A DNA stretch of 64,000 nt from Tunturiibacter empetritectus (lineage in GTDB: Bacteria > Acidobacteriota > Terriglobia > Terriglobales > Acidobacteriaceae). The position numbers and the translations under genes were made by a program. Numbering within the stretch: the first letter of the stretch is position 1; every line of letters begins with the position of its first letter. The notes beneath the pieces were generated by a model. The model ran no database searches, was not told where the DNA came from, and was given only the letters and a program-made list of their open reading frames with translations. Positions 5,024 to 58,854 of the stretch are shown here, in pieces. The stretch is from contig NZ_JACCCU010000001.1 of NCBI RefSeq assembly GCF_013410875.1, positions 682,001 to 746,000 of the forward strand, given 5' to 3'.

Positions 5024-6052
5024 CTACCCGCTACCGCGCAGCCAGCTCCCCTCCAACTGCTCCCGCAGCGCAGGCTCCAGATTTCCCCCACTCAAAATCA
5101 CCGCCACCTTCTTTACCTTCGGCAGCTCCTCAGCATGAAACAACGCCGCCGCCAGCGTCACCGCCCCACTAGGCTCCGGCACCAGCGTCGTTGCGCGCAA
5201 CATCACTCGCATCGCCGCCAGTATCTCCTCCTCCGACACCGTAACAATCCCATCCGCAAACTTCATCACATGAGCAAAGTTCAACACACCCAGACTCTGC
5301 GTCCGCAGTCCATCCCCAATCGTCCGCGTAGTCTTCGCCGCAGACCACTCCACCAGCGTCTTCGAGTAAAAGCTCTCCTTCGCATCCGCCGCCAGCTCCG
5401 GCTCCGCACCCCACACCTGCACCCCAGCACTCACCATCCCAGCCTGAGCCGCCAGTTTCACCGATGTAGCAGTCCCACTCAGCAATCCACCGCCGCTCAC
5501 CGGCGAGATCACCAACTCCACCCCCGGCAGCTGCTCCACAATCTCCAACCCGCAAGTAGCCTGCCCCGCGATAATCTGCGGAGCGTCATAAGGCGGAATC
5601 ATCGCATATCCAAACTCCGCCACCAGCTCCTCCGCCTTCAGTCTCCTCTCCGACGAAGCCGGCCCCACCTCCACAATCTCCGCGCCCAGCGCCCTCGTAG
5701 CCGCCTTCTTCACCTCAGGAGCATTCGAAGGCATCACAATCACCGCCTTCGCCCCCAGCGCCCGCGCCGCGTACGCCACCCCCTGCGCATGATTGCCGCT
5801 CGAGTAAGTAATCACCCCACGCCGCAGCGCCTCAAGCGACAACTGCGCCACCATGTTGTAAGCTCCGCGCAGCTTGAAGCTCCCAATCGGCTGCTCACTC
5901 TCTGCCTTGATGTAGAGATCGAACTCAGGCTCCGGAAACTCCCCCATCCGCAAACGAGCCCGTTCCACTCGATAAAGCGGCGTCCTCACCGCAACCCCGG
6001 CGATCCGCTCCTTCGCCGCCCGAATCTCCTCCAACGTCACAAACTCACTCAT
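5024..6052 (-). CDS. Threonine ammonia-lyase-like PLP enzyme (short, no ACT domain)
   Basis: Fold-type II PLP enzyme of the threonine dehydratase/serine racemase family, expected to deaminate threonine to 2-oxobutanoate. Signatures are the PLP lysine in SFKLRGAYN (about residue 58), the phosphate-proximal SSGNHAQG (about 83) and the glycine loop SGGGLLSG (about 184). About 342 residues with no C-terminal ACT domain fit the catabolic TdcB-like or serine racemase-like class rather than feedback-inhibited IlvA. The ATG at 6052 is preceded by GAGGAGA. Substrate could be threonine or serine; the sequence does not decide. The gene is monocistronic. Confidence 0.8.
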   Translation of the reverse strand: MSEFVTLEEIRAAKERIAGVAVRTPLYRVERARLRMGEFPEPEFDLYIKAESEQPIGSFKLRGAYNMVAQLSLEALRRGVITYSSGNHAQGVAYAARALGAKAVIVMPSNAPEVKKAATRALGAEIVEVGPASSERRLKAEELVAEFGYAMIPPYDAPQIIAGQATCGLEIVEQLPGVELVISPVSGGGLLSGTATSVKLAAQAGMVSAGVQVWGAEPELAADAKESFYSKTLVEWSAAKTTRTIGDGLRTQSLGVLNFAHVMKFADGIVTVSEEEILAAMRVMLRATTLVPEPSGAVTLAAALFHAEELPKVKKVAVILSGGNLEPALREQLEGSWLRGSG

Positions 6053-6108
6053 CAACCCACGTCTCCTCAGCTCATCGCCGCAGAGATAATTCTATCCGCC
6101 CAATTGAA

Positions 6109-44888: not shown

Positions 44889-44896
44889 CGGGCGGC

Positions 44897-45334
44897 TCAG
44901 GGCTTGCCCCCGTTCTGACTCCCGTCCTGCCCTCCCTGGGCGAGAAAATCCGCCATCAACTTCCGCGCGCTTTCGAGCTTCCGCACGTCGGCTTGGTCAC
45001 GGATTTTTAGCACGGAATCAGGGAGCAGATGCTTGCCTTCAGCGTTCGCCTGGGCGGTCGCGTGGAAGAGATTCAGGAGCAGATATCGGGTCGCCGAGAC
45101 CTCCGAAAGCAGCAGCTCCATCGGGTCCGCTGGACGTTGCCGCGCCGTCTTCAGGGCCAACTCGCGCAGCCATTCCGCAAGCGACTTCCCGTCGCGCCCA
45201 GCGGCGGCTTCGACCTCGCGCAGCTCTTCCGGAGTAAGTCTGGTTGCTACCGTCTTGGCGCGGAGGCCAGGGCGAACTTCATCGTCGGGTGGCGATGGAG
45301 GATGCGCCGGGGCCGGGATGCGAGGAGTGGTCAT
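44897..45334 (-). CDS. Ribbon-helix-helix relaxosome accessory protein (MobC/TrwA-like)
   Basis: 145 residues from ATG 45334. A disordered proline-rich start is followed by an RHH/MobC-type segment: KTVATRLTPEELREVEAAAGRDGKSLAEWLRELAL (in pieces KTVATRLTPEEL and KSLAEWLREL, residues about 28-65), which probably binds oriT DNA as a dimer. It is the first gene of the accessory-coupling protein unit, with the probable oriT directly upstream. Confidence 0.75.
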   Translation of the reverse strand: MTTPRIPAPAHPPSPPDDEVRPGLRAKTVATRLTPEELREVEAAAGRDGKSLAEWLRELALKTARQRPADPMELLLSEVSATRYLLLNLFHATAQANAEGKHLLPDSVLKIRDQADVRKLESARKLMADFLAQGGQDGSQNGGKP

Positions 45335-45427
45335 GGGGAGGGCCACCTCAAAAACAGAGTGCATCCGACGACGGCAATAGTCAACCCATGAAACCGCACT
45401 TGCCAGTCAAGTGCTTTAGTATTCAAT

Positions 45428-45600
45428 GCGTTTACGCGAAAGCGACAAAGTGAGTCCAGGCGGCAACTGGCGTTTACGGACGTAAACGCGGAACGGCTAA
45501 GTAGCTGATGGTAATCGCGTTTACCGCCGGGAACTTCCGGTTTACTTACATCTCCCATTTGGGGGTGATGTGTCAGCTCTACAACCGCTGCGTAGCAGCG
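45428..45600. other. Probable oriT/relaxosome-binding region with iterated GCGTTTAC motifs and hairpins
   Basis: Three copies of GCGTTTAC (45428, 45470, 45517), the second forming a perfect palindrome GCGTTTACG-GA-CGTAAACGC (45470-45489). A further hairpin CGCTGC (45586-45591) / GCAGCG (45595-45600) extends by outer pairs ACAAC/GTTGT. It lies between the accessory gene and a truncated relaxase gene, the usual position of oriT. It could also be an iteron origin. Confidence 0.6.
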
Positions 45601-45638
45601 TCGGGTTGTTGGCCTCCACGCATCCACGGCGACAGCCT

Positions 45639-46103
45639 TTAGGTCTGCAACAGAACCGCAACCGGGCATTCGTGGACGCGCACGGTAGGCTCGCGTGCGA
45701 CAAATCGCTCCCCGAGTGGAAACTGGCGGAAGGGGAATGAGCGGGGCATCACCCCCACCAATACCGTCACCGAGACCGACTTCGGCGCGGAAAACGTCGC
45801 ATCCCACCCGGCCCGGTGCTCGACTGAAGCCACCTCCCTACCGTTCTTGCCTTCGTAGGTCTTCGATACGGAGTGCCGGACGAGCTGCGCCTCTGTCTGA
45901 GGATGCTGACCTTCGCTCAACCGAGCGAAATGCTCGGAGCCGACCGCACCCTGTAGGCCCCATTGGCTGGCCAGCTTGCCTTGCCACTCCGAGTGACCCT
46001 GCTGGTCGCGGCTCCAGTAATTCTGCTTTTCGGACGCGAACTCGCGTGCGTGATACGTCCGCGCATGGTCGGCTGAGAGCGGTTTGGAGGAGATGGAAAG
46101 CAT
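45639..46103 (-). pseudogene. Truncated second MobF relaxase (N-terminal fragment)
   Basis: Residues 1-116 align with the start of the complete relaxase at 38195-40966 (about three quarters identical by eye: ARTYHAREFASEKQNYWSRD, EHRAGWDATFSAPKSVSV). Identity stops at about 45756; the remaining 38 codons are unrelated. The nicking tyrosines are kept, but the metal-binding histidines and the helicase are missing, so it should be inactive. The divergence suggests it came from a related element rather than from a recent duplication. Confidence 0.85.
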
Positions 46104-46108
46104 AAATC

Positions 46109-47701
46109 CTAGGCCTTTGTACTATGCAACGCGTTCTTCAGACGTTCCCGTAAGTCCTTGTTTGGTTCAGCTTGGAGAGCTGTCCCGAGCAACCACTCAG
46201 CCCCCTCAGGCCAAGTTGATCGAGGCCACTCAAGAAGAGCATTAAGAGCCATATTCCGATTCCGGGTAACCGGACTTTGAATGCCAGCCTTGAGAAATTT
46301 CCAGCCATGCTCTGGGAACCTCTTCAAATCCTGCAATACCCAATCGAGCGCTCGATGCGCCTCATACTTCTCTCCAAAACCAAGCGAGTCTGTCGGCCCG
46401 GTTGCGATCTGCTCTAACGGAAAAACTCCGTCTGCAAACCGCAGTACCTCTTCGATCTGCGCTTCGTCTGTCTGTTCAAGAAGCCGATACCAGGAGGACG
46501 ATTTCAATGGCGCAGCTTTGACCTTTGCGAAATGAACATTCCGTGTGCTGATGCCGAGCTGTTGGGCTGCTGCATCAGCTTGATAGAAGGCTCGGTCTTC
46601 CTCTGACAGGAGACCTTGATCCACTTTGTTTCGCCATTCTGGGCGTCCTATCTGATCGTCGCACTGGGCTTGTAGTCGAACGCGCAGTCCATCATCCCAT
46701 CCATTCGACAATCGCTCTCTCCACCCGTCATCGTTGAAAAGGAAGTTCTTCAAACAAGCGAGGCAGAGCAAGTGCTCAAGGTCGAGATCCGCAGTGCCGG
46801 TCACATGTCTTAGATACTCTCGAACTGATTCTGGAGCCTGAGGATAGTCATCGATGGAGTCTGCTGGCCCTCCATAGACAAGTGCTTTGAGGATAGCGGC
46901 GGCTCCATCCAAAAGCTCTGTATCAATGTGCGTTGGCCTGAGGGCTTCATGCAGTCTGCCAGTCTTCGCACAGACACCAGCAAGGTACTCATACATCACA
47001 TTATTTCGAAAACCTTCGCGCAGCATCCATGCCTGAATGTCGCGGTTTTGGGTGCCGCTAAGCCTCTCGACCACCTGAACTCGGCCCCATCCGTGAACTC
47101 GTTTAGCGATGTTCCACAATTTCTGTTCAGGATCGGTTGAAAGGCGGGCGACAGCTTTAGCCGCATACAAGGTGAACTCATCGTGAGTCGCTAGCAACTC
47201 CAAAACGGGCAGGTCGCTTTCATTGCCCGCTAGCTCAATCAGCATGAGCCCCAGCTTTACGTTCTCCTTTTCATCGGCTTCATTTGCTAGGTAGCGGCCG
47301 GTTTCAGTAACTCGGGATTTATAACGCCGTAGAAGACCTGCGCCGATCGCTTGCTCAAGGCCATCTGCTTCGGAAAGCAATGGTTCCCTTCGCACAGAGG
47401 AGTACAACGCCGAAAGGTTTTCGGCAGTGGCGCGATTCAGGAATCTCTCCAGCGCGCTGAGGAGTTCGGTCCTCCTTTGCTCTGGGCCGACGGCTTCTGG
47501 GTCGAATAGATGGTGACTTGTTACACCGTCCAAAGCACCTGCGGTCCAGCCAATCTTGTTTTCGTCCCTGTCTGTTTTATCCGGAAGGTCAGCGTCTCCT
47601 CCTTGAGCCTGAACGTAGGCAAAGAGAGATTGGCCGGTCCACGGCGGCGTGATCCCTTTGAGAGACCAAGGTCGGAAATTTAGGAGATTCATCATTGGCA
47701 T
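46109..47701 (-). CDS. Large unknown protein, helical repeat-like
   Basis: 530 residues from the ATG at 47701 (MPMMNLLNFRPWSLKGITPPW). A leading W/P-rich motif is followed by a mostly helical sequence with ARM/HEAT-like repeats in the middle (LGLMLIELAGNESDLPVLEL, HDEFTLYAAKAVARL). No catalytic motif recognised; similar proteins are sometimes labelled limonene hydroxylase without basis. It is the last gene of the likely defence operon: 110 bases separate it from the previous gene on the same strand. Confidence 0.6.
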   Translation of the reverse strand: MPMMNLLNFRPWSLKGITPPWTGQSLFAYVQAQGGDADLPDKTDRDENKIGWTAGALDGVTSHHLFDPEAVGPEQRRTELLSALERFLNRATAENLSALYSSVRREPLLSEADGLEQAIGAGLLRRYKSRVTETGRYLANEADEKENVKLGLMLIELAGNESDLPVLELLATHDEFTLYAAKAVARLSTDPEQKLWNIAKRVHGWGRVQVVERLSGTQNRDIQAWMLREGFRNNVMYEYLAGVCAKTGRLHEALRPTHIDTELLDGAAAILKALVYGGPADSIDDYPQAPESVREYLRHVTGTADLDLEHLLCLACLKNFLFNDDGWRERLSNGWDDGLRVRLQAQCDDQIGRPEWRNKVDQGLLSEEDRAFYQADAAAQQLGISTRNVHFAKVKAAPLKSSSWYRLLEQTDEAQIEEVLRFADGVFPLEQIATGPTDSLGFGEKYEAHRALDWVLQDLKRFPEHGWKFLKAGIQSPVTRNRNMALNALLEWPRSTWPEGAEWLLGTALQAEPNKDLRERLKNALHSTKA

Positions 47702-47811
47702 GTTCAACAAACTCTATATGCAAGGAGCACTGAAACCTCTAATCGATCCCTTGCGATCCCTACCGCGACATCCTAACCGAAGGTGGGCACCGAACCGACC
47801 TAAAGCCAAAT

Positions 47812-48621
47812 CTAAAATAGACTCTCTTGTGTCAAGTGCGGGGGATAGAATGTGCCGATGATGACGAAGGGATTTTTTGCCTTACGGACGTGCCATTCGT
47901 ACGTCGTGCCAAGGAATAGGTACAGGTCTTTGGTTTTGACAAAGTCATCCATGTACTTCTGGCGTACCTTCTGGACGGCCTGATCCTTGCCGTAGTATTT
48001 TTCGCAGTTCCAATATAGCTGGCCGATTTCCCAATCCTCGATCATCAGCTTGCTCTCGACACCGGCATCGTCCTTGAAGCGGTACGAGAATTTGTATGGG
48101 AGCTTTGGCATGATCTTGAAATCTTCGAGGTTCTGATCCTCGAAAAGATGACCTTGTTTCATGCTGTTGAGAATTCCGTTGATTTTGTCGTGCGGCCATT
48201 CGGGCTCGGCGACCTCTGCGACAAACTCAAAGACCTCGGCGGGCCTGAACACAACAAGCGAGATTTTGTTGTGGTGCGCAAGACCAATGATCTCTTTCAG
48301 GTTGGTGTAGATTTTCTTGTTGCCGAGAACTAGCTTTCGGCGATCCGCCCATTGACGCTCGGTGCCGATTTCATCAAGGAGTTTGATGTCGCTCGTGCTG
48401 AGAACACGGTAACTTTCGGGTCGCTGGTCCCCTTTGTTACGAGCGATATCTACCTCGACCCATTGGTATTTCTTGTATTGCTGCCCCTCGTCGAGCAGCC
48501 GGAAGGGAATGGGATAGAGGCGAATCCACGAGCCATCCTCACGAAAACCCGCCGTGCAGGCCAGTTCCTTATATTTTTCCGAGATGGTCGGATAGGTTTT
48601 GACGGTGATTAGGACTTTCAC
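47812..48621 (-). CDS. Unknown protein linked to the DUF488 gene
   Basis: 269 residues; the start appears to be GTG at 48621 (MKVLITVKTYPTISEKYKEL). A compact mixed alpha/beta start (TAGFREDGSWIRLYPIPFR) and a C-terminal LYLFLGTTYEWHVRKAKNPF segment. I do not recognise a named family. It lies 22 bases after the DUF488 gene on the same strand; the close spacing suggests they act together. Confidence 0.65.
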   Translation of the reverse strand: MKVLITVKTYPTISEKYKELACTAGFREDGSWIRLYPIPFRLLDEGQQYKKYQWVEVDIARNKGDQRPESYRVLSTSDIKLLDEIGTERQWADRRKLVLGNKKIYTNLKEIIGLAHHNKISLVVFRPAEVFEFVAEVAEPEWPHDKINGILNSMKQGHLFEDQNLEDFKIMPKLPYKFSYRFKDDAGVESKLMIEDWEIGQLYWNCEKYYGKDQAVQKVRQKYMDDFVKTKDLYLFLGTTYEWHVRKAKNPFVIIGTFYPPHLTQESLF

Positions 48622-48643
48622 TTTGGCATTCTCTTAGAGAACT

Positions 48644-49519
48644 TCAGATGTGATGGATGTCGTGTTTCCAGCCTGGGAGCGCGGACATTGCTTTTGCAAC
48701 GCGCCCCCGATGGCACATGCAGACATCTGCCTCAAAACAGGTAATCGCAATCCGCTTGTTTTTCAGGAAGATGTCGAACAGATCTTGTAGCGCCTTTCCG
48801 TTCTGCTTCAATTCCTCTTTTTCGTAGGAATTGAACAGGCGGTCGTAATCGGCTTGGGTATTCAGCTCTTGCCGTCTGTCCGACGCAATCCCAAGCTCCG
48901 GGATATGCACATAGCCAATTCCGAGCTTCTTGACAGTATCGGAGAGCGCTTTTTTGGAGAAACCATATTTGCGGCTTAGGGGATTGCGGCGCACGTCTAC
49001 GAGCGTCTTGACGCTGTTTTTGATGAGGCGATTCAAATAGCCTTCAAGGGAAGATCCCTCGTAGCCGATGGTAAAAAAGCAAGCGGCAGCGGCGGCGGGG
49101 CGCGCAGCCGTAATTGCGCTGACCTCTTGATTGTTCATGATCTTCGCGGCACGTTCGCTGTTGATGGCGTAATAAGGATAGCGGCGGTAAACGTCCTGCA
49201 ACAGCTTCGTACCCTTCAGGTGCGAGTATTTGGCGTAGCAGCGGTCAAACGCTGCCCCGTCGACTAACCCTTCCGTCGAAAACCCTTCCTGTAATTGCCA
49301 GTCATCGGTATCGGCCAAAGCGCCAATCTCGACGAGGCGGCGCTTGTCAGCATAGGACTGGAACGAAAAACTGCCGAATCTGTAAGGCACGAATTCAAAG
49401 GACGGCTCTTGCTGGAATTCCCGCGTAAACAGGAATAAATATTTTTGGAAGTCCGTGCTAAGCAAATGGCCGCCGAAGGCGCTGAGCAGTCCAATTAGCG
49501 TTTTCTGGCGGTAATTCAT
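48644..49519 (-). CDS. DUF488-domain protein with an N-terminal helical domain
   Basis: 291 residues. The C-terminal half is DUF488: FFTIGYEGSSLEGYLNRLI, TLVDVRRNPLSRKYGFSKKAL and the closing CFEADVCMCHRGRVA with its cysteine/histidine cluster. The N-terminal 140 residues (LIGLLSAFGGHLLSTDFQKYLFLF) form a separate helical domain like that of proteins in toxin/defence contexts. Biochemical role unknown. ATG at 49519, 92 bases downstream of the GIY-YIG nuclease. Confidence 0.75.
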   Translation of the reverse strand: MNYRQKTLIGLLSAFGGHLLSTDFQKYLFLFTREFQQEPSFEFVPYRFGSFSFQSYADKRRLVEIGALADTDDWQLQEGFSTEGLVDGAAFDRCYAKYSHLKGTKLLQDVYRRYPYYAINSERAAKIMNNQEVSAITAARPAAAAACFFTIGYEGSSLEGYLNRLIKNSVKTLVDVRRNPLSRKYGFSKKALSDTVKKLGIGYVHIPELGIASDRRQELNTQADYDRLFNSYEKEELKQNGKALQDLFDIFLKNKRIAITCFEADVCMCHRGRVAKAMSALPGWKHDIHHI

Positions 49520-49611
49520 GGTGAACCTTCATTTCGGAGTACAAACTCAATGGTACAGATTAGCTGCTGAAGCGACCCAAAGGAAGAGGTTTGCGCGAAA
49601 GCCGTACCCGA

Positions 49612-50826
49612 CTAGACATTCGCTAGGCCTGTCTTTACCAGACGCGCCGCCATCGGGTCATAAACGAATTGGGTAATGCTTCCGTCCTTGATGCGCTTGA
49701 CCGCCTCGTCCACCACAAACAGCGGGACCAGGAACCACTCGCGAGGTTTGATTGGATTGCCGAAGCGGTCCTTAATTTCGATGTCCAACTGCGCGGGATC
49801 GAAGACTCGATGAATCAGGTTTTCGAGCTTGACGCGGTTGACGTTGTAAAGAACGTAAGTAGCGACAACCTCCACTTCGGCCATCAGGAAGGTGGGGTCC
49901 AGGCTTGCGTTTGCGACGCGCGTTCCAATCTTTCCTCCGGTGACGCCGATTTTATGCAATACCTCACGATGGGCTGCAACGATTGGATTGTCTGACTTGC
50001 TTCTCAGAACATAAATGGTCCCGCTAGCAAGATCGTCCGCGTCGTGTTCATCCGCGAACAAAGGCCCCGCGTCAGGGTTTGTAATGATGCGGCCCGCCTG
50101 CTCTTTATCGGGATAAAGAGACCGTTGGAACGAGCGCATGAGTATATTGCTTTCGGTCCCGTTGTCATAGATGATGCGCAAGCGGCTGTCCCTGCGGTCG
50201 TACCCAGTTCTAAAGCCCTCTCCGACCTCAGCAACGTAGGCAACCTGGCCGCCAACGATGAAGTATTGGCCTTTCTGAATCTCGGCCATCTTGATCTGAT
50301 CCATCGTCTGAACAGGGATCGACTCACGAACGCCGGACTGCAACTCTCTTTGAACCTTCTCGATGAGCGGCTTGAATACTTCAAAATCCTCACAGACGGC
50401 ACGGTTGGCAATCTCTTCGGCAGCACGTTTGTCTGCGCTCTTACGAACGTGGTGCAGCTCAGTGATGCTTCCCGCGTCTGGAATGTCTTTCAGCTCGGCT
50501 AGCAACTCTTCGTCATCAATCGCCTCATGCGAAACGTCCACAATAATCTCCCCACCAGCGAGCAACCCTTGATGGTCGAGCGCCGCAAGCAACGAGCGGA
50601 ACTCCGGCAGCGTGCGCAGCCGGTCGAGACGCACAGCATACAACCTCTCGAAGATATCGAGATCTTCGCCGTGTTTGGGTAAGCGGCCATGCTTCTCGAC
50701 AAACCGCTGAATCTCTTCGAAACCAGCGATGACGCGCTCGTCTCGCGGCGAGCGGCCACCTTTCTTCTCCGACTCTGCAAAATCGCTGAGTTCCGCGCGC
50801 AGTTCATCGAGATCAATTTCGCTCAT
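49612..50826 (-). CDS. GIY-YIG nuclease-domain protein of the helicase/methyltransferase operon
   Basis: 404 residues from ATG 50826, which follows GAGGG and overlaps the helicase stop by 14 bases; the ORF can extend 32 codons further inside the helicase gene. The C-terminal part carries a T5orf172/MUG113-type GIY-YIG domain: TIYVLRSKSD (about 270), LHKIGVTGGKIGTRVA (about 290) and the helix with the metal glutamate VKLENLIHRVF (about 335). The N-terminal 200 residues are helical and charged, of unknown fold. It probably supplies the DNA cleavage step of the module. Confidence 0.82.
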   Translation of the reverse strand: MSEIDLDELRAELSDFAESEKKGGRSPRDERVIAGFEEIQRFVEKHGRLPKHGEDLDIFERLYAVRLDRLRTLPEFRSLLAALDHQGLLAGGEIIVDVSHEAIDDEELLAELKDIPDAGSITELHHVRKSADKRAAEEIANRAVCEDFEVFKPLIEKVQRELQSGVRESIPVQTMDQIKMAEIQKGQYFIVGGQVAYVAEVGEGFRTGYDRRDSRLRIIYDNGTESNILMRSFQRSLYPDKEQAGRIITNPDAGPLFADEHDADDLASGTIYVLRSKSDNPIVAAHREVLHKIGVTGGKIGTRVANASLDPTFLMAEVEVVATYVLYNVNRVKLENLIHRVFDPAQLDIEIKDRFGNPIKPREWFLVPLFVVDEAVKRIKDGSITQFVYDPMAARLVKTGLANV

Positions 50827-53254
50827 AACGGCCCTCATCTTTGTAGCGTACAAAGGCGGCAGCACCTTCCGCCATCCGCCTTTCCCAGGCATCCTGCGAA
50901 TCAATCGATGGAATCCGGCCACGTTCCTTCTTGAACTTCACAGCGCGAATTGCTAGCTCCTTTGCCTCTTCCGGTGTCAACTTCGTCTTCTTCGCAGAAA
51001 TGGCAGCGGCAACCTGTCTTAGATTGTCCTCGTTCATGGTCTTACCGAGGATTGCCCGGGCCTCACCAAACGGATTGATGCGGTCTATCAGGTCAATATC
51101 CAATTCCCGCACATCCATCACATACCTGCGAACGCCGTCGATCAATGCAGTATTAGCCGACGGTTCCGTGCCCCCACCACCAAGAACTTCCTTCTTCGCC
51201 TGTTGCGTCAGAGCGAGCGCAGCAATCGCGTGCTGGCGCACCGCTTCCTGATCCTCGGTATCGAGTTCCGGGTATTTATCCTTGATGATCTTGCCCAGGC
51301 GAACCTGTGTCAGTTCTTCAGGCACCAAATCTTCATTGAATAGCCCTTGCTCCACAGCAGTCTTGTCCTGAACGAAAGCAGCAATCACCTCGTTCAAATC
51401 TTCTTGGCAGATACGCGCGGCTTCTACACTTTTCGGCGGAGTGAGTCCCTTGATTTCAATCTGGAAGCGCCCCGTCTGCTCATTGAAGCCGACGTTACAC
51501 TTATCAGGGTCGTATCCACCTTCGCCATAATCGTAGCCGTCCGCAGGCCGATTCTCCGAGTTCTTCTGCCTGAACTCGAAGCGCGGCGCAAGCACCTGTT
51601 CCATAAGCAAGCTGGCGGCAATGGCCTTCAAGGTGTCGTTCACCGCTTCGTTGACAGCCTCATCGGAGGCATCTGGAGCTGCAATCAAGTTCGAGAACCG
51701 AGTACGTATTTTGCCGGGAGCATCACGTGTAGCGCGTCCAATAATCTGCACGATCTCCGTCAGACTTGAACGATATCCGATTGTCAGCGCGTGGTCGCAC
51801 CAAATCCAGTCGAAGCCCTCCTTCGCCATGCCGAGGGCAATAATAATGTCCACGTTGTCGCGATTGTTCTTCTGCGAAGCATCCTTCAGGGAAGCCAGCA
51901 CCTTGGCGTGCCTATCCGGCCCATCATCAACAAGATCAGCTATCTTCAGGATGCAGCCATCCGCCAACCGCACCAAGTCAAAGCCTGTCGCAGGGTCTTT
52001 GCCCTCCCAGCTTCCCAGTGCTCCCATGATCTCGCTTACTTCCGTCGTCTTACCGCGTTTCGTACTTTCACGCGAGTTGACATTGGGGATGTGGATGATG
52101 GTTTTCTCAGAAACATCCAGGACTTTCGGGATGTCCTCGATATACGACCCGCTGTAGAAGAAGTAGCCTATGTCGAGCTGCTTCAGATACTCGTATCCAT
52201 TGAGCTGTTCGTAATAGGTATAAGTGATGGTGTCAAATTTTTCTTCATCTTGCGGAGATAATACGGCCTCTGCATCGCCGCGGAAATACGATCCTGTCAT
52301 GGCGACGATATGGACGCGCTCGCGTGCAATGAACTGGCCGAGATGTGCGCCGAGCTTGTTGTCCGGGTTAGCGGAGACATGATGGAACTCGTCGACTGCG
52401 ATCAGCCGGTCGTCAAACTTCTCCACACCGTACTGATCGACCGCAAAGCGGAAGGTCGCATGCGTACAAACCAGCACCTTATCACTGCTCTCAAGGAATG
52501 CCCCAACAGCCTGCACTTTACTTCCGTTGTCGCCACCTGGAGCATTGCAGAGGTTCCACCTCGGCTCAACATGCCAATCCGACCGGAAGCCAAACTTGGT
52601 CAACGGTTCATCGTTGAAGCTCGCTCCGATGGACCGCTCGGGGACTACGATGATTGCTTGCTTCAAGCCTTGATGTTCGAGTTTGTCGAGGGCAATAAAC
52701 ATGAGCGCGCGGCTCTTGCCAGAGGCTGGAGGTGATTTGATGAGAAGGAACTGCTCACCGCGCTTTTCGTAAGCGCGTTCCTGCATAGGTCGCATGCCAA
52801 GAGCATTCGCCCTGGTCGAACTTCCATTTCGGGCATAGGAAACAGACACCATCGGAATTTCGGTTCGAGATTCGATGAATGGCATCGGTAGCGTCGCTTT
52901 GACCAACTCTCCTTGAAAAGGTAGTAGCGCTTTTTCGATCTGCTCCCCGGTTATATAGGCAGTTTTTTCTTTGCCGGATTGTCGAGATACTTCCAGAAGA
53001 ATCAAGCCGCCATTTTCGCCACCAAGGAACACGTCTCGCAGGCTCACTTGCCCGTTACGCAGTTTCTGGAAGAGCTGAAGCGACATGGTCTGCACATAGT
53101 ATTCATCGACGGCCTCGATAGATCTGATCCATAACACAAGGAATACTGAGCCAAGTTGATTTGAGGATGCAAATAGGCGTGGGCCATCGTAGTACTCGTA
53201 GATCTCGAGTACCTTCAAACGTCCGAGGATTGTTCCATTAGCGAATGTTTCCAT
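50813..53254 (-). CDS. Superfamily 2 DEAD/DEAH-type helicase (restriction-subunit-like)
   Basis: 813 residues. Helicase motifs: I SPPASGKSRALMF (about 176), II DEFHH (about 290, DEAH variant), III MTGSYFRGD, V ALGMAKEGFDW (about 470), VI QIIGRATRD (about 507). The layout is like the R-subunit ATPases of type I/III systems, without a visible nuclease domain of its own; the GIY-YIG gene downstream could provide it. Start ATG 53252-53254 shares one base with the stop of the small gene upstream (TGATG), a tight coupling. Confidence 0.88.
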   Translation of the reverse strand: METFANGTILGRLKVLEIYEYYDGPRLFASSNQLGSVFLVLWIRSIEAVDEYYVQTMSLQLFQKLRNGQVSLRDVFLGGENGGLILLEVSRQSGKEKTAYITGEQIEKALLPFQGELVKATLPMPFIESRTEIPMVSVSYARNGSSTRANALGMRPMQERAYEKRGEQFLLIKSPPASGKSRALMFIALDKLEHQGLKQAIIVVPERSIGASFNDEPLTKFGFRSDWHVEPRWNLCNAPGGDNGSKVQAVGAFLESSDKVLVCTHATFRFAVDQYGVEKFDDRLIAVDEFHHVSANPDNKLGAHLGQFIARERVHIVAMTGSYFRGDAEAVLSPQDEEKFDTITYTYYEQLNGYEYLKQLDIGYFFYSGSYIEDIPKVLDVSEKTIIHIPNVNSRESTKRGKTTEVSEIMGALGSWEGKDPATGFDLVRLADGCILKIADLVDDGPDRHAKVLASLKDASQKNNRDNVDIIIALGMAKEGFDWIWCDHALTIGYRSSLTEIVQIIGRATRDAPGKIRTRFSNLIAAPDASDEAVNEAVNDTLKAIAASLLMEQVLAPRFEFRQKNSENRPADGYDYGEGGYDPDKCNVGFNEQTGRFQIEIKGLTPPKSVEAARICQEDLNEVIAAFVQDKTAVEQGLFNEDLVPEELTQVRLGKIIKDKYPELDTEDQEAVRQHAIAALALTQQAKKEVLGGGGTEPSANTALIDGVRRYVMDVRELDIDLIDRINPFGEARAILGKTMNEDNLRQVAAAISAKKTKLTPEEAKELAIRAVKFKKERGRIPSIDSQDAWERRMAEGAAAFVRYKDEGRYERN

Positions 53255-53637
53255 CAGGCCAACACCTTGAACACTGAAGCGTGATTGAAGCCATCAGGTG
53301 CCCACCACGTATGGTGCGAGTTGCCGTTTCTAGGCGTGTGCATGAGCTTACCAGCTTCAGGTGTAAGAATTGCACTTGCGAGCAAGCTTCCGGGAGGACG
53401 CATACCTGGAACCCGTCTAAGCAAACGCGCTGCATCGTCCTTATCAGTGAACACAGATAGCCCTGACGCTTTGCAGTTGCCCATCCACTTTTCGGGGCAC
53501 CGTTCCGCGTGAGACTCAAAGTCGCTTGCCGATGGCGGCTCGAACGCGACAAGTCGAAATACCTCTGTAGAAGCCTCTGAAGCGTCTGGGGGAGGGCAGG
53601 CCTTCGGGAAAAAAGATGGCCAGTGCAATGTGGTCAT
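53254..53637 (-). CDS. Small unknown protein between methyltransferase and helicase
   Basis: 127 residues, rich in proline, histidine and tryptophan (LHWPSFFPKACPPP at the start, SHHTWWAPDGFNHA at the end), with one C-x7-C pair (ERCPEKWMGNCKASG). No family recognised. It overlaps the methyltransferase stop by four bases (ATGA at 53634-53637) and its own stop overlaps the helicase start, so it is an integral part of the operon. It may be a specificity or assembly factor, or an inhibitor; nothing in the sequence decides. Confidence 0.7.
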   Translation of the reverse strand: MTTLHWPSFFPKACPPPDASEASTEVFRLVAFEPPSASDFESHAERCPEKWMGNCKASGLSVFTDKDDAARLLRRVPGMRPPGSLLASAILTPEAGKLMHTPRNGNSHHTWWAPDGFNHASVFKVLA

Positions 53638-56396
53638 TCTCCGGTCTTCCTTTTTTGTCTTCCGATTGGTGAGCCTGAAGCCGTCGTCTTTGCGTAGAGA
53701 TCGAACAGTTTCTCCAGCCGTTCCGTGTCGTTCTTGAAGCGACGACCGATGTAGATGCGCTCTAGCACCTCGTCATTACGCTCATGAGCCTGGCGTAAGT
53801 CTTGGGGCATCTCATTCGGCGCGTAGAGGTCGGCTATTGTTGCCGGAAAGTGATGCTCCCGTACCAACAATATCTCTTCGGCGCAGCGCGTTAGATCGGC
53901 CCTATTTTTTTCCGTCAATGTTGGCACGGGAAAAGTATTCCACCCTAGAGTCGATGAATATCGAAGGCGACTCTCTAGCTTGCCGCATACAGTTGTAATC
54001 CAAACGAGATGTAGCTTCGATAACAGCAATGCGAGTTCCCATAATGACGGCGCATATATCGCAAATGCTGCGTCCGAAATGATCATGCTCTCATCGCATA
54101 GGTTCGCCGGAAGATACTCCCGCGTCTCGGATGACGTTTTAGCAATCGCAATGGATAGGGTCTCTCTGTGAGCACGCTGAGCAAATTTATGAGGAATGCT
54201 GGAGTAGCCCTTGGTTGTCTTTGCTGAAGACGCGTCCCGGAAGGATCTGACCCTCTCAATCCTCTCATTGATCTCTGGAACCGACTTGGCAAGCTCCAGA
54301 TGGTCATCTTCTATCCAGAGACACCTTCGATCTTGAAAGTGGATTAGCTCCTGCGATCCAAGAAAGACGCGAAGTAGTCGCCGCGACAAGGGTTCCTTCC
54401 TGAGTAAATCCATTGATTCGGCGTAGGTCATGATGAGATTGCCGCCATCACGTGCCATGCTGCCGGACACCATAGTGCCGAATTCAGAGCAGAGAGTTGA
54501 ATCGCGAGTTTCGACGTACAGTTCCTCTCCAGCAATCAAATAAGGGGAGATTGAATCTACTTCTCGTTTGACATCTCCATCGAACAAGATGCATCGGGCT
54601 GGCTTACTTCGACCAACCCCTACAATGACACACTGGACCACAGCGTTATTCGACGCATTGTTTCGCCATCTGAATCCCTGGTGTGCAAAGTTGATGTGGC
54701 AACCAGCCTCGTAGAGGCGTGACCAAAGATGTGCGACTTGCTCACCCTCGCTAATTGAGCTCGTTGAAACAAATGCAAACGTTGCATTGCAACTCTGTAA
54801 AAGTTCAGAGGCCTTCAGATACCATGCTGTTACGTAATCACAATCTTTGAAATCGTTATGGCCTTTGAAGATGAACGCCATATCTTCCTTCTGCGCCCTT
54901 GATTGTTTCCTGGCACCCTTGAATTGTGGGTTTCCGCAGATGTATATCTCTCCGCCATCATGCACGAAGTTGATTTCAGCCTGGTTCAAGGGCGTGCTGA
55001 AGAGATCATCGGCGACCAATCTAACACCTGTCCCTCCAACGTCCATCAAGCTTGACCAGTCAAGACGGAGCGCATTGCCGCACGTGATCCAATTTTCAGA
55101 ACGCAGAGGTAAGAACTCGGCCAATGCTAGCTTTGGACCACGATATAGGACATCGGCTTGGTATTCGGCAATGACAAGAGCGAGGCGAGCAATTTCTACA
55201 GGAAAATCTCTCAACTCGATACCACGAAAATTCTCAACCGGAATGTCACTCTTCAGTTCGGATTCGCCGCGCCGCCGATTTATCTCTGCCTCAATTTCGC
55301 GCATCTGCTTGTACGCGATTACAAGGAAGTTGCCAGAGCCGCAAGCCGGATCGAACACCCGAATTTTCGCCATGCGCTTGCGCAGGTTGAACAGCGCGCG
55401 AGGATTATCGCCTGCCTCCTGAAGCTTTGCTCGCAGGTCGTCGAGGAAGAGCGGATTGAGAACCTTCAGGATATTGGGCACGCTGGTGTAGTGCATTCCA
55501 AGCTCGCCGCGTTCCTCATCTTCTGTGACCGCCTGAATCATGGAGCCGAAGATGTCGGGATTGATCTTCGTCCAGTCGAGGCCGCCAATGTGCAGCAGGT
55601 AGGAGCGCGCGATCTTGCTAAAGCGCGGTACGTCCATATTGCCGGAGAACAGGCCTCCGTTGACGTAAGGAAACGAATCAGCCCAGTTGGGGAGTCCGGC
55701 GCTCTTTCGTTCTCCAACCATCGTGCTCATGGCCCGGAAGAGCGCGCCGATGACTTCGTGCGTGTTCGAGGAGTCACGCTCACTCATCTGGGCGATGGTG
55801 TTGGTGAACAGCCCTTTGCCGATGAAGATGTCCGTATCCTCAGCAAAGAAGCAGAAGATGAGCCGTGCCATGAAGTGGTTCATGTCATGGCGGCGCTCGG
55901 ACTTGCCCCATTCCGGGTTGTCCTTCAGGAGTTCAACATAGAGCCGGTTCATGCGGCTCGTTGCCCGAATATCGAACGAATTCTCTTTGATCTGCTGAAC
56001 CGTGGTGATACCGGCCAACTGCAGGAAGAAGCCGAAGTGGTTTGGGAAGTCGGGGTAAGCGCAAGCTACGGTTTCGCCGCTTGCGATGTCCTCTGCCTCG
56101 AAGTCGACGCCGTCGGTTACCAGAACAAACTTCGCCTTTGCCTTGGCTGTCGCGGGACTCTCCTTCACCGCCCGGAGAGCTTCCGTGATGCCGCCCTGGT
56201 CGCAGGTGGCGATGTGGATATTGCCGGTCTGGAGAACGCCACCGAGGTCGGACTTGTTCGTCGCACCGGCCCGCAGCCGCTTGATCGTCGCCTCCTTGTT
56301 GCCAAAGGCTTCAAGGAAGGCATACGGGAAGTTCGCAGCATCGAAAGGCTGTTCTGCGAGCTGCGATATAGCTTCCTCAATTTCAACGGCGTTCAA
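53634..56396 (-). CDS. MmeI-like class I DNA (adenine) methyltransferase
   Basis: 920 residues, with the start at a TTG (complement 56394-56396) behind GAGGAAGG. N-terminal 340 residues are helical as in MmeI-family proteins; no clear PD-ExK nuclease motif is visible there. Motif I is FDPACGSGNFLV (about 350), and motif IV is GNPQFKG (about 489) where NPPY/F is usual. A target-recognition part follows at about 600-850 (SSTLGWNTFPVP). It probably methylates the host's copies of the recognition site for the helicase-nuclease encoded downstream. First gene of the coupled operon. Confidence 0.87.
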   Translation of the reverse strand: MNAVEIEEAISQLAEQPFDAANFPYAFLEAFGNKEATIKRLRAGATNKSDLGGVLQTGNIHIATCDQGGITEALRAVKESPATAKAKAKFVLVTDGVDFEAEDIASGETVACAYPDFPNHFGFFLQLAGITTVQQIKENSFDIRATSRMNRLYVELLKDNPEWGKSERRHDMNHFMARLIFCFFAEDTDIFIGKGLFTNTIAQMSERDSSNTHEVIGALFRAMSTMVGERKSAGLPNWADSFPYVNGGLFSGNMDVPRFSKIARSYLLHIGGLDWTKINPDIFGSMIQAVTEDEERGELGMHYTSVPNILKVLNPLFLDDLRAKLQEAGDNPRALFNLRKRMAKIRVFDPACGSGNFLVIAYKQMREIEAEINRRRGESELKSDIPVENFRGIELRDFPVEIARLALVIAEYQADVLYRGPKLALAEFLPLRSENWITCGNALRLDWSSLMDVGGTGVRLVADDLFSTPLNQAEINFVHDGGEIYICGNPQFKGARKQSRAQKEDMAFIFKGHNDFKDCDYVTAWYLKASELLQSCNATFAFVSTSSISEGEQVAHLWSRLYEAGCHINFAHQGFRWRNNASNNAVVQCVIVGVGRSKPARCILFDGDVKREVDSISPYLIAGEELYVETRDSTLCSEFGTMVSGSMARDGGNLIMTYAESMDLLRKEPLSRRLLRVFLGSQELIHFQDRRCLWIEDDHLELAKSVPEINERIERVRSFRDASSAKTTKGYSSIPHKFAQRAHRETLSIAIAKTSSETREYLPANLCDESMIISDAAFAIYAPSLWELALLLSKLHLVWITTVCGKLESRLRYSSTLGWNTFPVPTLTEKNRADLTRCAEEILLVREHHFPATIADLYAPNEMPQDLRQAHERNDEVLERIYIGRRFKNDTERLEKLFDLYAKTTASGSPIGRQKRKTGE

Positions 56397-56636
56397 TGGG
56401 GCAAACCTTCCTCGGATTTACTCTTCTGTTTGGGTTGGCCCAACATGGAAGCAAAACACTTTCACATATAAGGATACTGACCACTGAGCTACCCTGTCGA
56501 AACTTCAGAGCCTTTACTTTGCACAGGGACTCCGCATACGTTCCTATGCAGAGACAACAGCAGATCAATACGGGCCAGAGCGCCCTCTGATCCGCTAAGT
56601 GCTAGGCCGAACGGGTGTGACGGATCAAGCGAAACT
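56397..56636. other. Intergenic region upstream of the methyltransferase operon
   Basis: 240 bases between the methyltransferase start and the stop of the XRE gene, on the same strand. It should hold the operon promoter. I see no repeat of known type; a short stretch on the minus strand looks like a tRNA D-arm, but no tRNA can be folded. Confidence 0.3.
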
Positions 56637-56876
56637 CTACAGAGGTTGCCGTTTCAACCGGACGCCCGGCTGTCCGTCGTTGAGAAATTCGACTCCAGCC
56701 TTTTCCAATGCCTTCTGCACTTGAGAGAGCGTTGACGTGCGCGCGCCAACCTCTTCATCAAAGGACTCCATCCTTCGGATGGTTCCTACCGCCACGCGCG
56801 AGCGCTTTGCCAGCTCAATCTGCTCCATGCCAAGCAGAGCGCGTGCAGCCCGTAATTGTCTTCCCGTGATAATCAA
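56637..56876 (-). CDS. Small XRE-family transcriptional regulator
   Basis: 79 residues, nearly all one HTH_XRE domain: QLRAARALLGMEQIELAKRS, VAVGTIRRMES. The start appears to be TTG at 56876 (TTGATTATCACGGG). A C-terminal FLNDGQPGVRLKRQPL is typical of small phage/island repressors. It diverges from the four-gene cassette across a 64-base region with a palindrome and probably represses one or both promoters. Confidence 0.88.
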   Translation of the reverse strand: MIITGRQLRAARALLGMEQIELAKRSRVAVGTIRRMESFDEEVGARTSTLSQVQKALEKAGVEFLNDGQPGVRLKRQPL

Positions 56877-56937
56877 AACAAGGGAAAGCTAACATGCGCA
56901 GCCGCATAAGCCCAAGTATATAAATAATATATACAAG

Positions 56938-56960
56938 TAGTTGATTATGATAATCAACTA
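56938..56960. promoter_or_regulatory. Perfect palindromic operator candidate between divergent genes
   Basis: TAGTTGATTA-TGA-TAATCAACTA, arms 10 bases, spacer 3. A further half-site TTGATTAT is part of the start of the XRE gene (56869-56876). The surroundings are AT-rich (TATATAAATAATATATAC) and suit a promoter. Binding by the adjacent XRE protein is inferred. Confidence 0.7.
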
Positions 56961-56976
56961 TGAGATTATTCTGCCC

Positions 56977-57738
56977 ATGCTAGGTTCTCAACATTCTCCG
57001 CGCACCCGAGGCGATTTCAGCGTTCATTTGCTCACGCAGATTGAAATGTTGCGTGGCGACATTTCCCACGAACAGCTAAGCAAGAAGCTGGGAGATGTAA
57101 CGGAACGTTATCTCGCCCGATATGTTGCTGGCAAGATTCATTTGCTGGAACGCGACTTCTATCAGCTTGCCAAAGCCCTCAGCATTTGTCCGCGAGTTCT
57201 GGCCGAACAATGGGCTGTTGCGTGTGGCTTGCGAGTGCCGCCACGCCTGTCTGACAAAGACGCGGTGGAGTGGATCAGGCAACGAGCGTACCGCCACTGG
57301 CGGCAACATTCTCGGATTGCGCGGCTTCCAGCCAATCGAGTTCCCCCTGACCCCTCTCCTATGACCATCATCCGTGAGAAATATGCAGACATACTCCCTC
57401 GCAAAACTCCACGCCTCAGTTTTGGTTCTCACAGCAGCTCGAAGTCTACGCCGGAGGGAAGACAGCAATTCGCGCGGGCTTACAGGATGCTGGTGCAGTT
57501 CGTTCATGACGGCGAATCGCAAAGAACCATCGGAGCCATGCACGGCATCAGTGGGGAGCGCGCGAGGCAGTTGATGGTATCGGCGGCCTACACCTGGGCT
57601 AGAAGAGCAGGTATTGAGCTGGTTGGTGACAGGTCTGTCCCATTCAAGAATGATGCCAAGCTGGTGAAGAACCTCTACGCTGGCCTGAAGTTTTATGCGG
57701 AACGACAGTTCGCCGAGCTGGAAACCGAGGGAATATGA
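56977..57738 (+). CDS. HTH protein of unknown function, first gene of the coupled regulator cassette
   Basis: The ATG at 56977 is chosen, giving about 253 residues; ATG and TTG codons further upstream lie within the palindrome. An N-terminal HTH-like part (GDISHEQLSKKLGDVTERYL) and a C-terminal second HTH like sigma region 4 (SQRTIGAMHGISGERARQLM) suggest a two-site DNA-binding protein. No family name is secure. Its stop overlaps the next start by four bases (ATGA). Confidence 0.65.
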   Translation: MLGSQHSPRTRGDFSVHLLTQIEMLRGDISHEQLSKKLGDVTERYLARYVAGKIHLLERDFYQLAKALSICPRVLAEQWAVACGLRVPPRLSDKDAVEWIRQRAYRHWRQHSRIARLPANRVPPDPSPMTIIREKYADILPRKTPRLSFGSHSSSKSTPEGRQQFARAYRMLVQFVHDGESQRTIGAMHGISGERARQLMVSAAYTWARRAGIELVGDRSVPFKNDAKLVKNLYAGLKFYAERQFAELETEGI

Positions 57739-58154
57739 GAATCAGCCGTGAGGAGTTCAACCAAGCCATAGGGGCAGCTCTGAGTGCTTTGCGGGTAGAA
57801 CGTGGTTTCTCGCAAGCAGAGGTCGCGGAGGGCATCAACGCGATTCCCGAAGTTGACAGGCAAGAGCGGAGCACACGCGCTGTTGCTGCTTACGCGGCTC
57901 TCTCTATCATTTTGCGGAACGAGCAGGGTCTGACGCAGGAAGAACTGGCAAAGCATAGCCAGGTGCCGGTTGAATTCGTGTGCGGTCTCGAAGCTGGAAA
58001 AGACCCCAATCCGGACTTCTATTTTCTCTACTGCCTCAGCATCGGTTTCGATCTTTCCTTTACAGAATTTGCGCACCGGGCTGAAGAGCTATCGGACATT
58101 CCCGATGAAGTGCTTCTGGAGAACGAAGCCAACGAAGAGGGGGAGCAACCATGA
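57735..58154 (+). CDS. XRE-type HTH protein, second gene of the cassette
   Basis: 139 residues. The XRE domain lies at about 50-110: LRNEQGLTQEELAKHSQVPV, EFVCGLEAGKDPNPDFYFLY. An N-terminal part (LRVERGFSQAEVAEGINAIP) looks like another degenerate HTH. Coupled by ATGA overlaps to both neighbours. Confidence 0.8.
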   Translation: MRISREEFNQAIGAALSALRVERGFSQAEVAEGINAIPEVDRQERSTRAVAAYAALSIILRNEQGLTQEELAKHSQVPVEFVCGLEAGKDPNPDFYFLYCLSIGFDLSFTEFAHRAEELSDIPDEVLLENEANEEGEQP

Positions 58155-58495
58155 GCAGAGCGCGGGTGAAGACGATTCGCCTAGAGCATAAGCACGGCAC
58201 GCTCTTCGATTACAGCGTGAAGGGGAAGGAAGTCGATCACATAAGGTTTTCTCAAGCGGAGCGCAGCGTAGTCTATGTGACCGTGCTGTTTGCTGATCGC
58301 ACCGAGTGGTCCATCTCCATCGAGCCATTTTCCCTGCCTACAGCAAGGGTTTCGCACTTTGTCTCCACCGAAGAAGACCCCATCGCCGACAGCGGACAGA
58401 TGTTCTTACCGGATCATCCAGACTATTGCCCCCGGTACGACCAGATTAAGCAACCACCGAAACAGCAAAAGCCTGGGAAGAGGTCTAGGAAATGA
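58151..58495 (+). CDS. Unknown protein, third gene of the cassette
   Basis: 114 residues; mainly beta in the first two thirds (TIRLEHKHGTLFDYSVKGKE, VYVTVLFADRTEWSISIEP), with a basic lysine/proline-rich tail (KQPPKQQKPGKRSRK). No family recognised. Start and stop overlap neighbours by four bases each, so it is obligately cotranslated with the HTH genes. Confidence 0.65.
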   Translation: MSRARVKTIRLEHKHGTLFDYSVKGKEVDHIRFSQAERSVVYVTVLFADRTEWSISIEPFSLPTARVSHFVSTEEDPIADSGQMFLPDHPDYCPRYDQIKQPPKQQKPGKRSRK

Positions 58496-58854
58496 GGCCA
58501 CGGAACAATGCCGCGATGCAACGGTACAGAGAGGAGTACCACCGTTGTTGCGGTGATCTGGTTCGTCAGCTCCGCACCGAAAAGGGCTGGAGCCTTGCAG
58601 ACTTTTCAAGGGAGACAGGAATTTCCGTTCCCTGGCTCCGGAAGTTTGAGGAGAACCGGCTAACAACGAACTATTCCATGCGCCTTCAAATGCAAATGGT
58701 TCAGGCTTTGGGTTTCGGCGTCATGGAGATTCATCAGTTCTACAAACGCGTGGACGAGATGACCGAGACAAGCGTAGGTCCGCCCCCTTGGCTCATAAAC
58801 AACAAGAAAGAGAGGACCTCCAAGATGGGCGGTTCCGATAGGGGATCGTCCTAG
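58492..58854 (+). CDS. XRE-type HTH protein, fourth gene of the cassette
   Basis: 120 residues with an HTH domain at about 20-75 (LVRQLRTEKGWSLADFSRET, GISVPWLRKFEENR). ATG within the previous stop. A hydrophilic tail follows. Its role is probably regulatory. Confidence 0.78.
   Translation: MRPRNNAAMQRYREEYHRCCGDLVRQLRTEKGWSLADFSRETGISVPWLRKFEENRLTTNYSMRLQMQMVQALGFGVMEIHQFYKRVDEMTETSVGPPPWLINNKKERTSKMGGSDRGSS

Follow-up and report, generated by a model that had tools for sequence, protein, structure and literature searches.

A DnmA-YeeB-YeeC operon in Tunturiibacter empetritectus with an inserted PD-T4-10A-like gene and a DUF6575 domain fused to its helicase

Introduction

Is the four-gene operon found in Tunturiibacter empetritectus a new kind of defence system, or a known one to which something has been added? 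The operon lies in a 64,000-nucleotide stretch of contig NZ_JACCCU010000001.1 (positions 682,001 to 746,000), the whole of which is referred to here as the window. On its minus strand are four open reading frames (ORFs) with overlapping ends, encoding a methyltransferase, a protein of 127 residues, a helicase and a GIY-YIG protein. An earlier note, made from the sequence alone, could match this set to no named system. Our analyses show that the methyltransferase, the helicase and the GIY-YIG protein are the described DnmA-YeeB-YeeC set, and that part of the claim falls; the four-gene set as a whole indeed has no name among the PADLOC models. The core is thus already known, and what is new is the inserted antitoxin-like gene and the toxin-like N-terminal domain fused to the helicase. 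Based on these analyses, we give roughly even odds (a probability of about 0.5) to the view that a DnmA-YeeB-YeeC restriction-modification operon has acquired, by grafting, a control pair of the PD-T4-10 type, whose small protein would hold the helicase in check. The features of the operon, in window coordinates, are as follows.

53634-56396, minus strand: DnmA/MmeI-like adenine methyltransferase, TTG start, 920 amino acids, five MmeI Pfam domains
53254-53637, minus strand: PD-T4-10A-like small protein, 127 amino acids (PADLOC PD-T4-10_A, E 9.8e-8)
50813-53254, minus strand: helicase, whole ORF, 813 amino acids (DUF6575 plus DEAD/ResIII)
52877-53254, minus strand: DUF6575 N-terminal domain, in frame with the helicase (its residues 1 to about 126)
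50813-52876, minus strand: YeeB-type superfamily 2 (SF2) helicase/translocase, residues about 127-813 (DEAD/ResIII)
49612-50826, minus strand: YeeC-type GIY-YIG (T5orf172/MUG113) protein, candidate nuclease, 404 amino acids from the ATG at 50826

Results and Discussion

The core of the operon

The small ORF shares 4 bases with the methyltransferase and 1 with the helicase, and the helicase and GIY-YIG ORFs overlap by 14 if the ATG at 50826 is used (the longest GIY-YIG ORF begins at a GTG at 50922), all as first described. The overlaps suggest translational coupling; the stoichiometrically linked expression of the earlier note does not follow from them. Pfam agreed with the families as first read: MmeI_N, _hel, _Mtase, _TRD and _C, that is, all five MmeI domains including a target recognition domain of its own, in the methyltransferase; DEAD/ResIII, an SF2 signature, together with DUF6575 in the helicase; and MUG113 (E 5.3e-12) and T5orf172 (E 1.2e-11) in the GIY-YIG protein. 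A PADLOC comparison, proposed with the first description, was informative for two of the genes: the methyltransferase matched REase_MTase_IIG (a type IIG enzyme) with 925 bits over nearly its full length and the small protein matched PD-T4-10_A with a modest score, while the helicase gave weak matches only and the GIY-YIG protein none.

According to extracts of PMC9973331, Bacillus subtilis DnmA is an MmeI-like N6-methyladenine methyltransferase without a nuclease motif, encoded with YeeB (an SF2 helicase) and YeeC (T5orf172/GIY-YIG), and in other species SF2 helicase and GIY-YIG families are the commonest at the first and second downstream positions. The absence of the nuclease motif from DnmA is also stated in the portion of PMC7261158 consulted. 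The window has these three core families in identical order and direction, with the GIY-YIG/T5orf172 protein directly 3′ of the helicase. It differs in the PD-T4-10A-like gene between methyltransferase and helicase and in the extra DUF6575 domain on the helicase.

Related genome loci were collected by a profile scan of contigs with helicase alignment A1, from which L014 and L015 were left out because of stops in their stretches. Among the best 80 of 550 confirmed matches, a GIY-YIG match was present in 79 loci and a methyltransferase match in 75. Three of the five loci without the latter (L037, L061 and L065) have about 1.1 kb or less of upstream sequence; L044 and L064 have 6 kb available there and still no methyltransferase match. 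Co-occurrence, on which the first reading of this operon had been made to depend, therefore holds for the three core families, whereas the full four-gene set is found in two genomes. The window's helicase core is 75-82% identical to those of the best 80 loci (82% to L027). It carries Walker A at residue 175, DEFHH at 288 and motif VI at 503, the first two identical in 86 of 86 helicase rows. In the GIY-YIG protein Y272, G294, R303 and E335 are invariant in 83 of 83 rows, all of which have a lysine (Lys292) at the usual first tyrosine of the YIG part; which of the residues are catalytic is our assumption from the wider family. Phage records searched with the helicase gave three matches, none covering 80%.

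A wholly undescribed defence system would fit the fact that the set as a whole is unnamed in PADLOC and that we found no description of it in the literature. With three genes belonging to DnmA-YeeB-YeeC, and the fourth gene and the extra domain resembling PD-T4-10, this explanation is very improbable and already largely refuted.

The methyltransferase resembles MmeI (type IIL) in its five Pfam domains and in an alignment that leaves out little more than the first ~87 residues. It is unlike MmeI in lacking the E-x-K motif, and nuclease function would sit in a separate protein. The nuclease motif of the MmeI family presumably falls at about residues 45-72. In that stretch E-x-K was found in none of 67 aligned near-complete methyltransferases, the window's included (one row has E-x-K at another place within residues 1-87), and the family profile aligns with the MmeI structure 5hr4 only from MmeI residue 108 onwards. 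The claim of an MmeI-like methyltransferase without a nuclease is thereby upheld, as is the unusual split of parts with the 127-residue protein as the odd piece. A single-chain restriction enzyme of the MmeI type was considered and rejected, since the N-terminal PD-ExK nuclease motif is absent from the methyltransferase chain.

A DUF6575 domain added to YeeB

The helicase, first read as an SF2 ATPase, consists of two parts that were not noticed in that reading, a DUF6575 domain (residues ~1-125) and a YeeB-type helicase (~127-813). The Pfam DUF6575 model matches residues 2-122 (E 2.2e-20) with the first 123 of its 218 positions. Ordinary YeeB begins where residue ~126 of the window's helicase lies, and the boundary is clean in the alignment. 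Among plasmid relatives (266 records), the 40 listed align from residues 111-142 onwards. Likewise, 79 of the best 80 genome loci match from residue 120 or beyond; the remaining one, L026, matches from residue 1. That locus belongs to the second genome with all four genes (G257, contig G257:C16; its loci are L013 and L026), from the window's family and another genus. The helicase is fused to the domain there as well, and the 4- and 1-base overlaps are identical to the window's; with the identical structure in G257, an assembly error as the source of the fusion was rejected.

The window's small protein shares 57% identity with that of L026, and its added domain 52%. Divergence between the two loci at codon positions 1, 2 and 3 is 0.33, 0.20 and 0.54 for the small gene and 0.33, 0.23 and 0.60 for the DUF6575 part. 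Both are under protein-level selection (42-48% amino acid difference). DUF6575 was found in 4 of 399 genomes sampled from the class, 3 of 396 from the phylum, 5 of 395 from the phylum of G768 and 4 of 298 from the order, samples that overlap one another, and across all of them it stands on YeeB in the window and G257 only. A contig scan with the domain alone gave 104 pattern matches, none of them confirmed.

PD-T4-10 is described in extracts of PMC9519451 as a two-gene system acting by abortive infection, in which the second protein (B) is toxic and the first (A) neutralises it; the same source names DUF6575 among domains not earlier reported in phage defence. The PADLOC model PD-T4-10_B matches six of eight DUF6575 queries (the window's domain, L013, L017, L022, L106 and L107; E 1.1e-7 to 0.0056); L020 has no match at E 0.1, and L025 none among the matches listed. 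The link between DUF6575 and PD-T4-10B rests on these matches and is supported by the constant A-like neighbour. By this comparison, the toxin PD-T4-10B has at its N-terminus a domain similar to helicase residues 1 to ~125. As in PD-T4-10, an antitoxin-like gene directly precedes, in an overlapping frame, a gene with a PD-T4-10B-like N-terminal domain; in contrast to PD-T4-10, a restriction helicase stands where the rest of the toxin would follow. The C-terminal part of PD-T4-10B is absent here, the tail being the YeeB helicase, with no similarity to 49 PD-T4-10B-like tails.

The small protein

The 127-residue protein had no Pfam match at E 0.1. Its residues R28, S61, G96, T101, H108 and W112 are invariant between it and eight relatives (alignment A3, whose profile has nine members; L018 was left out for a stop in its stretch). 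Judging from the PADLOC match, it is a relative of the antitoxin PD-T4-10A.

Models of the small protein and of the DUF6575 domain were made with AlphaFold from alignments A5 and A6 (16 and 18 rows, from the window and the loci). That of the small protein has a predicted local distance difference test score (pLDDT) of 89.2. In a Foldseek search of the PDB the first three matches were chains of the Pseudomonas putida Xre-RES complex (probability 0.90-0.92, E 0.03-0.04), which we take to be the RES toxin. VIA-align showed 50 rows with Z 4.2-7.3, the best (7.3) being under 8; most of these rows are proteins of the ADP-ribosyltransferase fold (KptA/Tpt1, RES, ParT, MbcT, Arr and others). By contrast, the lists for the DUF6575 domain (pLDDT 76.7) were not dominated by this fold and held nothing usable (best Z 3.6), so that no fold is proposed for it. 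The viral structure library yielded no match to the small protein at E 0.001.

In ADP-ribosyltransferases of the R-S-E type, an arginine, a serine and a glutamate stand at comparable places, and the catalytic glutamate is typical, although not universal. The invariant Arg28 and Ser61 lie in the first and second of the listed strands of our model, and neither A3 nor A5 has an invariant glutamate. The structural matches suggest, and do not prove, an ADP-ribosyltransferase-like fold for the small protein; with the arginine and serine kept and no invariant glutamate, it may act by binding or as an altered enzyme.

The pair in other genomic contexts

We assembled 62 further loci with the N-terminal DUF6575 domain (47 viral contigs, 11 other loci including L026, and four further genomes; the window is not counted). 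In 60 of them the domain is directly preceded by an A-like gene in the same orientation, as judged with a profile built from nine members of the same locus set; the exceptions are L023 and L109. The overlap of the two genes is 4 bases in 49 of the first 56 loci. Many loci are near copies and not independent, the first 58 forming 22 groups at 80% identity. In L018 the A-like gene (5933-6307) has an in-frame stop, and its DUF6575 partner is open.

The pair recurs with other C-terminal parts. When the parts after the domain were compared by BLAST (57 loci and the window, leaving out L023, with its 4-residue tail, and the four later genomes), six groups were obtained: 49 PD-T4-10B-like tails, four of a second kind (L017, L020, L022 and L108), the YeeB helicase (window and L026), the tail of L018, an SNF2 helicase (L025) and the 36-residue tail of L109, which is too short to be judged as a separate kind. 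In profile-profile comparisons the highest probability between any two groups was 3.7%. The tails of the first two groups may have their starts in common, because the Pfam DUF6575 model extends past the N-terminal domain to position 214 in L107 and 178 in L020. At the level of these comparisons, the toxin-type tails, YeeB and SNF2 are clearly different C-terminal parts.

Several of these loci lie among restriction or defence genes. In L017 (4253-7004) a PD-T4-10-like pair sits exactly between hsdS and hsdR, overlapping hsdS by 4 bases; in L020 the pair follows the Druantia gene DruE; and in L108 annotated type I genes are found ~3.4 kb downstream. L025 (5976-10030) has the domain fused to an SNF2 helicase, with the A-like gene directly upstream and with DUF4391 and a type III methyltransferase after the helicase. 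L021, L106 and L107 lie among phage genes, as presumably do most of the 47 viral contigs, and no telling neighbours were noticed around L018, L022, L023, L165 and L166. On the viral contig of L109 (3116-3613) the domain is followed, by eye, by a membrane helix, and no A-like gene is upstream.

Accessory genes of a toxin-like kind beside or between the recognition and motor genes of type I restriction operons offer a parallel, PrrC and RloC reportedly being further examples next to such operons. An excerpt of PMC12255303 places DarTG2 between hsdS and hsdR. In those operons the toxin is a separate gene, while in ours the N-terminal domain is fused to the motor itself. We consider, as a tentative reading and a less likely one than its opposite, that PD-T4-10A and the DUF6575 domain form a portable two-part switch, in which a protein of ADP-ribosyltransferase-like fold would bind or modify a receptor domain grafted on different effectors and so make restriction conditional on the state of the antitoxin. 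The effectors would then be, with the same reserve, the toxin tails, the YeeB restriction helicase and the SNF2 helicase beside a type III-like methyltransferase.

The methyltransferase-helicase junction as a variable slot

In the window the methyltransferase is not directly followed by the helicase, the small gene intervening. Direct adjacency is not a strict feature of the set, since 43 of the 75 relatives with a methyltransferase also have more than 60 bases there: 32 loci have 60 bases or fewer between methyltransferase and helicase core, 42 have more than 400 and one has 311. An ORF of 60 residues or more is present in all but one of the 43 wider gaps (42 of 75 loci), and a 4-base overlap joins the methyltransferase stop to the first slot ORF in 30 of the 43. 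As an internal control, the helicase-GIY-YIG junction exceeds 60 bases in 0 of 79 loci and is always tight. In a tally of slot states over 83 rows, 73 of them with a state, at least 36 multi-state changes are needed, including six single-locus states, and 22 when only empty and filled are distinguished.

Slot ORFs of 90 residues or more number 51 and form 21 clusters, nine with at least three members, and a few of the small clusters may be spurious. Their representatives match DUF1016/YhcG, RhuM, SLFN_AlbA_2, BrnT, Zeta, Fic and PIN. Four (L036:5198-5980, L048:5150-5983, L076:5138-5986 and L097:4929-5948) have no Pfam match at E 0.01 and no PADLOC match at E 0.001, and each is in a cluster of three to five loci; these are candidates for undescribed defence genes, and the junction is a place to look for more. 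In the literature searched we found no slot of this kind described for DnmA-YeeB-YeeC operons, apart from a remark in the consulted part of PMC9973331 that a further uncharacterised family is perhaps an extra member of the set in some bacteria.

A junction that so often takes insertions is expected to hold decaying remnants. The small gene and the DUF6575 domain might accordingly be the functionless leftover of a toxin-antitoxin insertion that has lost its effector, in an otherwise ordinary DnmA-YeeB-YeeC operon; that there are two fused copies only is in keeping with this. We consider it unlikely, as both parts keep the family-invariant residues and show the codon-position divergence of selected proteins, and a comparable graft stands on the unrelated SNF2 helicase of L025.

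The toxin-like character of other slot genes (BrnT, Zeta, Fic, PIN) also bears on the possibility that the operon is an abortive-infection device, in which the DUF6575-helicase would be toxic without the small protein, in the manner of PD-T4-10B, and restriction would be secondary or lost. PD-T4-10 itself works in this way, with B as the toxic protein and A as its antidote. What speaks against it is that nothing of PD-T4-10B beyond the N-terminal domain is present here and the toxin's tail is unlike the helicase, and that the helicase and nuclease motifs are conserved, as expected if restriction has been kept. This explanation too seems improbable to us.

A proposed role for the pair

Based upon these observations, we predict a DnmA-YeeB-YeeC operon under the control of the grafted pair. 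The methyltransferase would mark host DNA and provide target recognition, and the YeeB motor would work with the YeeC GIY-YIG nuclease on unmarked DNA in a type I-like manner. The small protein, made just before YeeB, would bind or modify the DUF6575 domain and keep the motor off, in parallel to the neutralisation of PD-T4-10B by PD-T4-10A; its loss or inactivation during infection would release restriction. A toxin-antitoxin pair would thus have been turned into a regulator, with a restriction motor in place of the C-terminal part of the toxin.

Several points weigh against this proposal. The fused DUF6575-YeeB form is known from two genomes, the window's and G257. The window's domain matches PD-T4-10_B weakly (E 0.0056), and the whole helicase does not match that model at E 0.01. 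In searches with its profile, the small protein had chance-level matches only among PDB sequences, and no ADP-ribosyltransferase was among them. The examined part of PMC9519451 gives a predicted function for neither PD-T4-10 protein and does not assign DUF6575 to PD-T4-10, and no published report of an interaction between the small protein and the N-terminal DUF6575 domain was found. In the methyltransferase motif I is DPACGSGNF and motif IV NPQF, and activity is uncertain because NPQF (residue 489) stands where 62 of 67 rows have NPPY; NPQF is otherwise seen in L066 and L091, three rows in all with the window's, and NPPF in two. Finally, extracts of PMC9973331 and PMC7261158 report no restriction of phage or plasmid by the B. 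subtilis set: deletions had no effect on three phages, and loss of dnmA had none on plasmid uptake.

The B. subtilis results would equally suit an inactive relic in which the methyltransferase alone still acts, as was concluded for DnmA in that species. Against this, the window has intact helicase and GIY-YIG motifs, which are conserved among its relatives, and deletions of the dnmA and yeeB homologues of Vibrio crassostreae raise sensitivity to some phages in a study cited in the seen part of PMC9973331. A relic is in our estimation quite improbable.

If a restriction motor gated by the small protein is the right reading, the control half of a dismantled toxin-antitoxin pair has been put to a new use, and switch and weapon are therefore separable modules. 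It would also offer a direct route to the trigger of PD-T4-10-type systems, and might account for the apparent inactivity of some DnmA-YeeB-YeeC sets under the conditions tested.

Origin and genomic setting

A tree of the helicase core and the GIY-YIG protein, made from 38 hand-picked rows of the 83 with both genes, joins the window to two Bryobacterales copies with an empty slot (support 82). L026 is the sister of L097 (support 100), whose slot gene is PLD-like by eye. Making the window and L026 sisters costs 161 log-likelihood units and is rejected by the approximately unbiased (AU) test (p-AU 0.0009), the pair having been defined by the shared fusion and the tree already inspected before the test was run. 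Since the two are not sisters, either there were two gains of the grafted pair, or it was exchanged, or a single gain was followed by loss or replacement. The nearest near-complete methyltransferases to the window's are two Rhizobiales copies, L066 and L091 (73% identical), and a fragment in L059 is 78% identical over ~450 residues. The window's operon is thus a mosaic in its own right.

In another genome of the same species (G060; L176), the flanks of the region (window 44000-45608 and 56603-58810) match at 93%, and blastn and tblastn of window 45609-56602 gave no match between them. G060 has instead ~14 kb there, with a DrmD-like helicase, a type III methyltransferase and other genes. With the flanks kept and the stretch between them not, the operon lies in a variable island, and by this comparison the site at 45609-56602 is a defence hotspot.

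Upstream of the operon, on the minus strand at 56637-56876, a 79-residue ORF looks XRE-like by eye. It was considered as a control gene and rejected, having no tblastn match in the 80 loci and lying within the flank that G060 keeps without the operon. At the other edge of the island, an ORF at 45639-46103 is relaxase-like by eye and apparently cut short. Directly downstream of the operon is the PADLOC candidate pair PDC-M19B (47812-48621) and PDC-M19A (48644-49519; DUF488), and an M19B-like ORF was also noticed by eye near the operon of L013.

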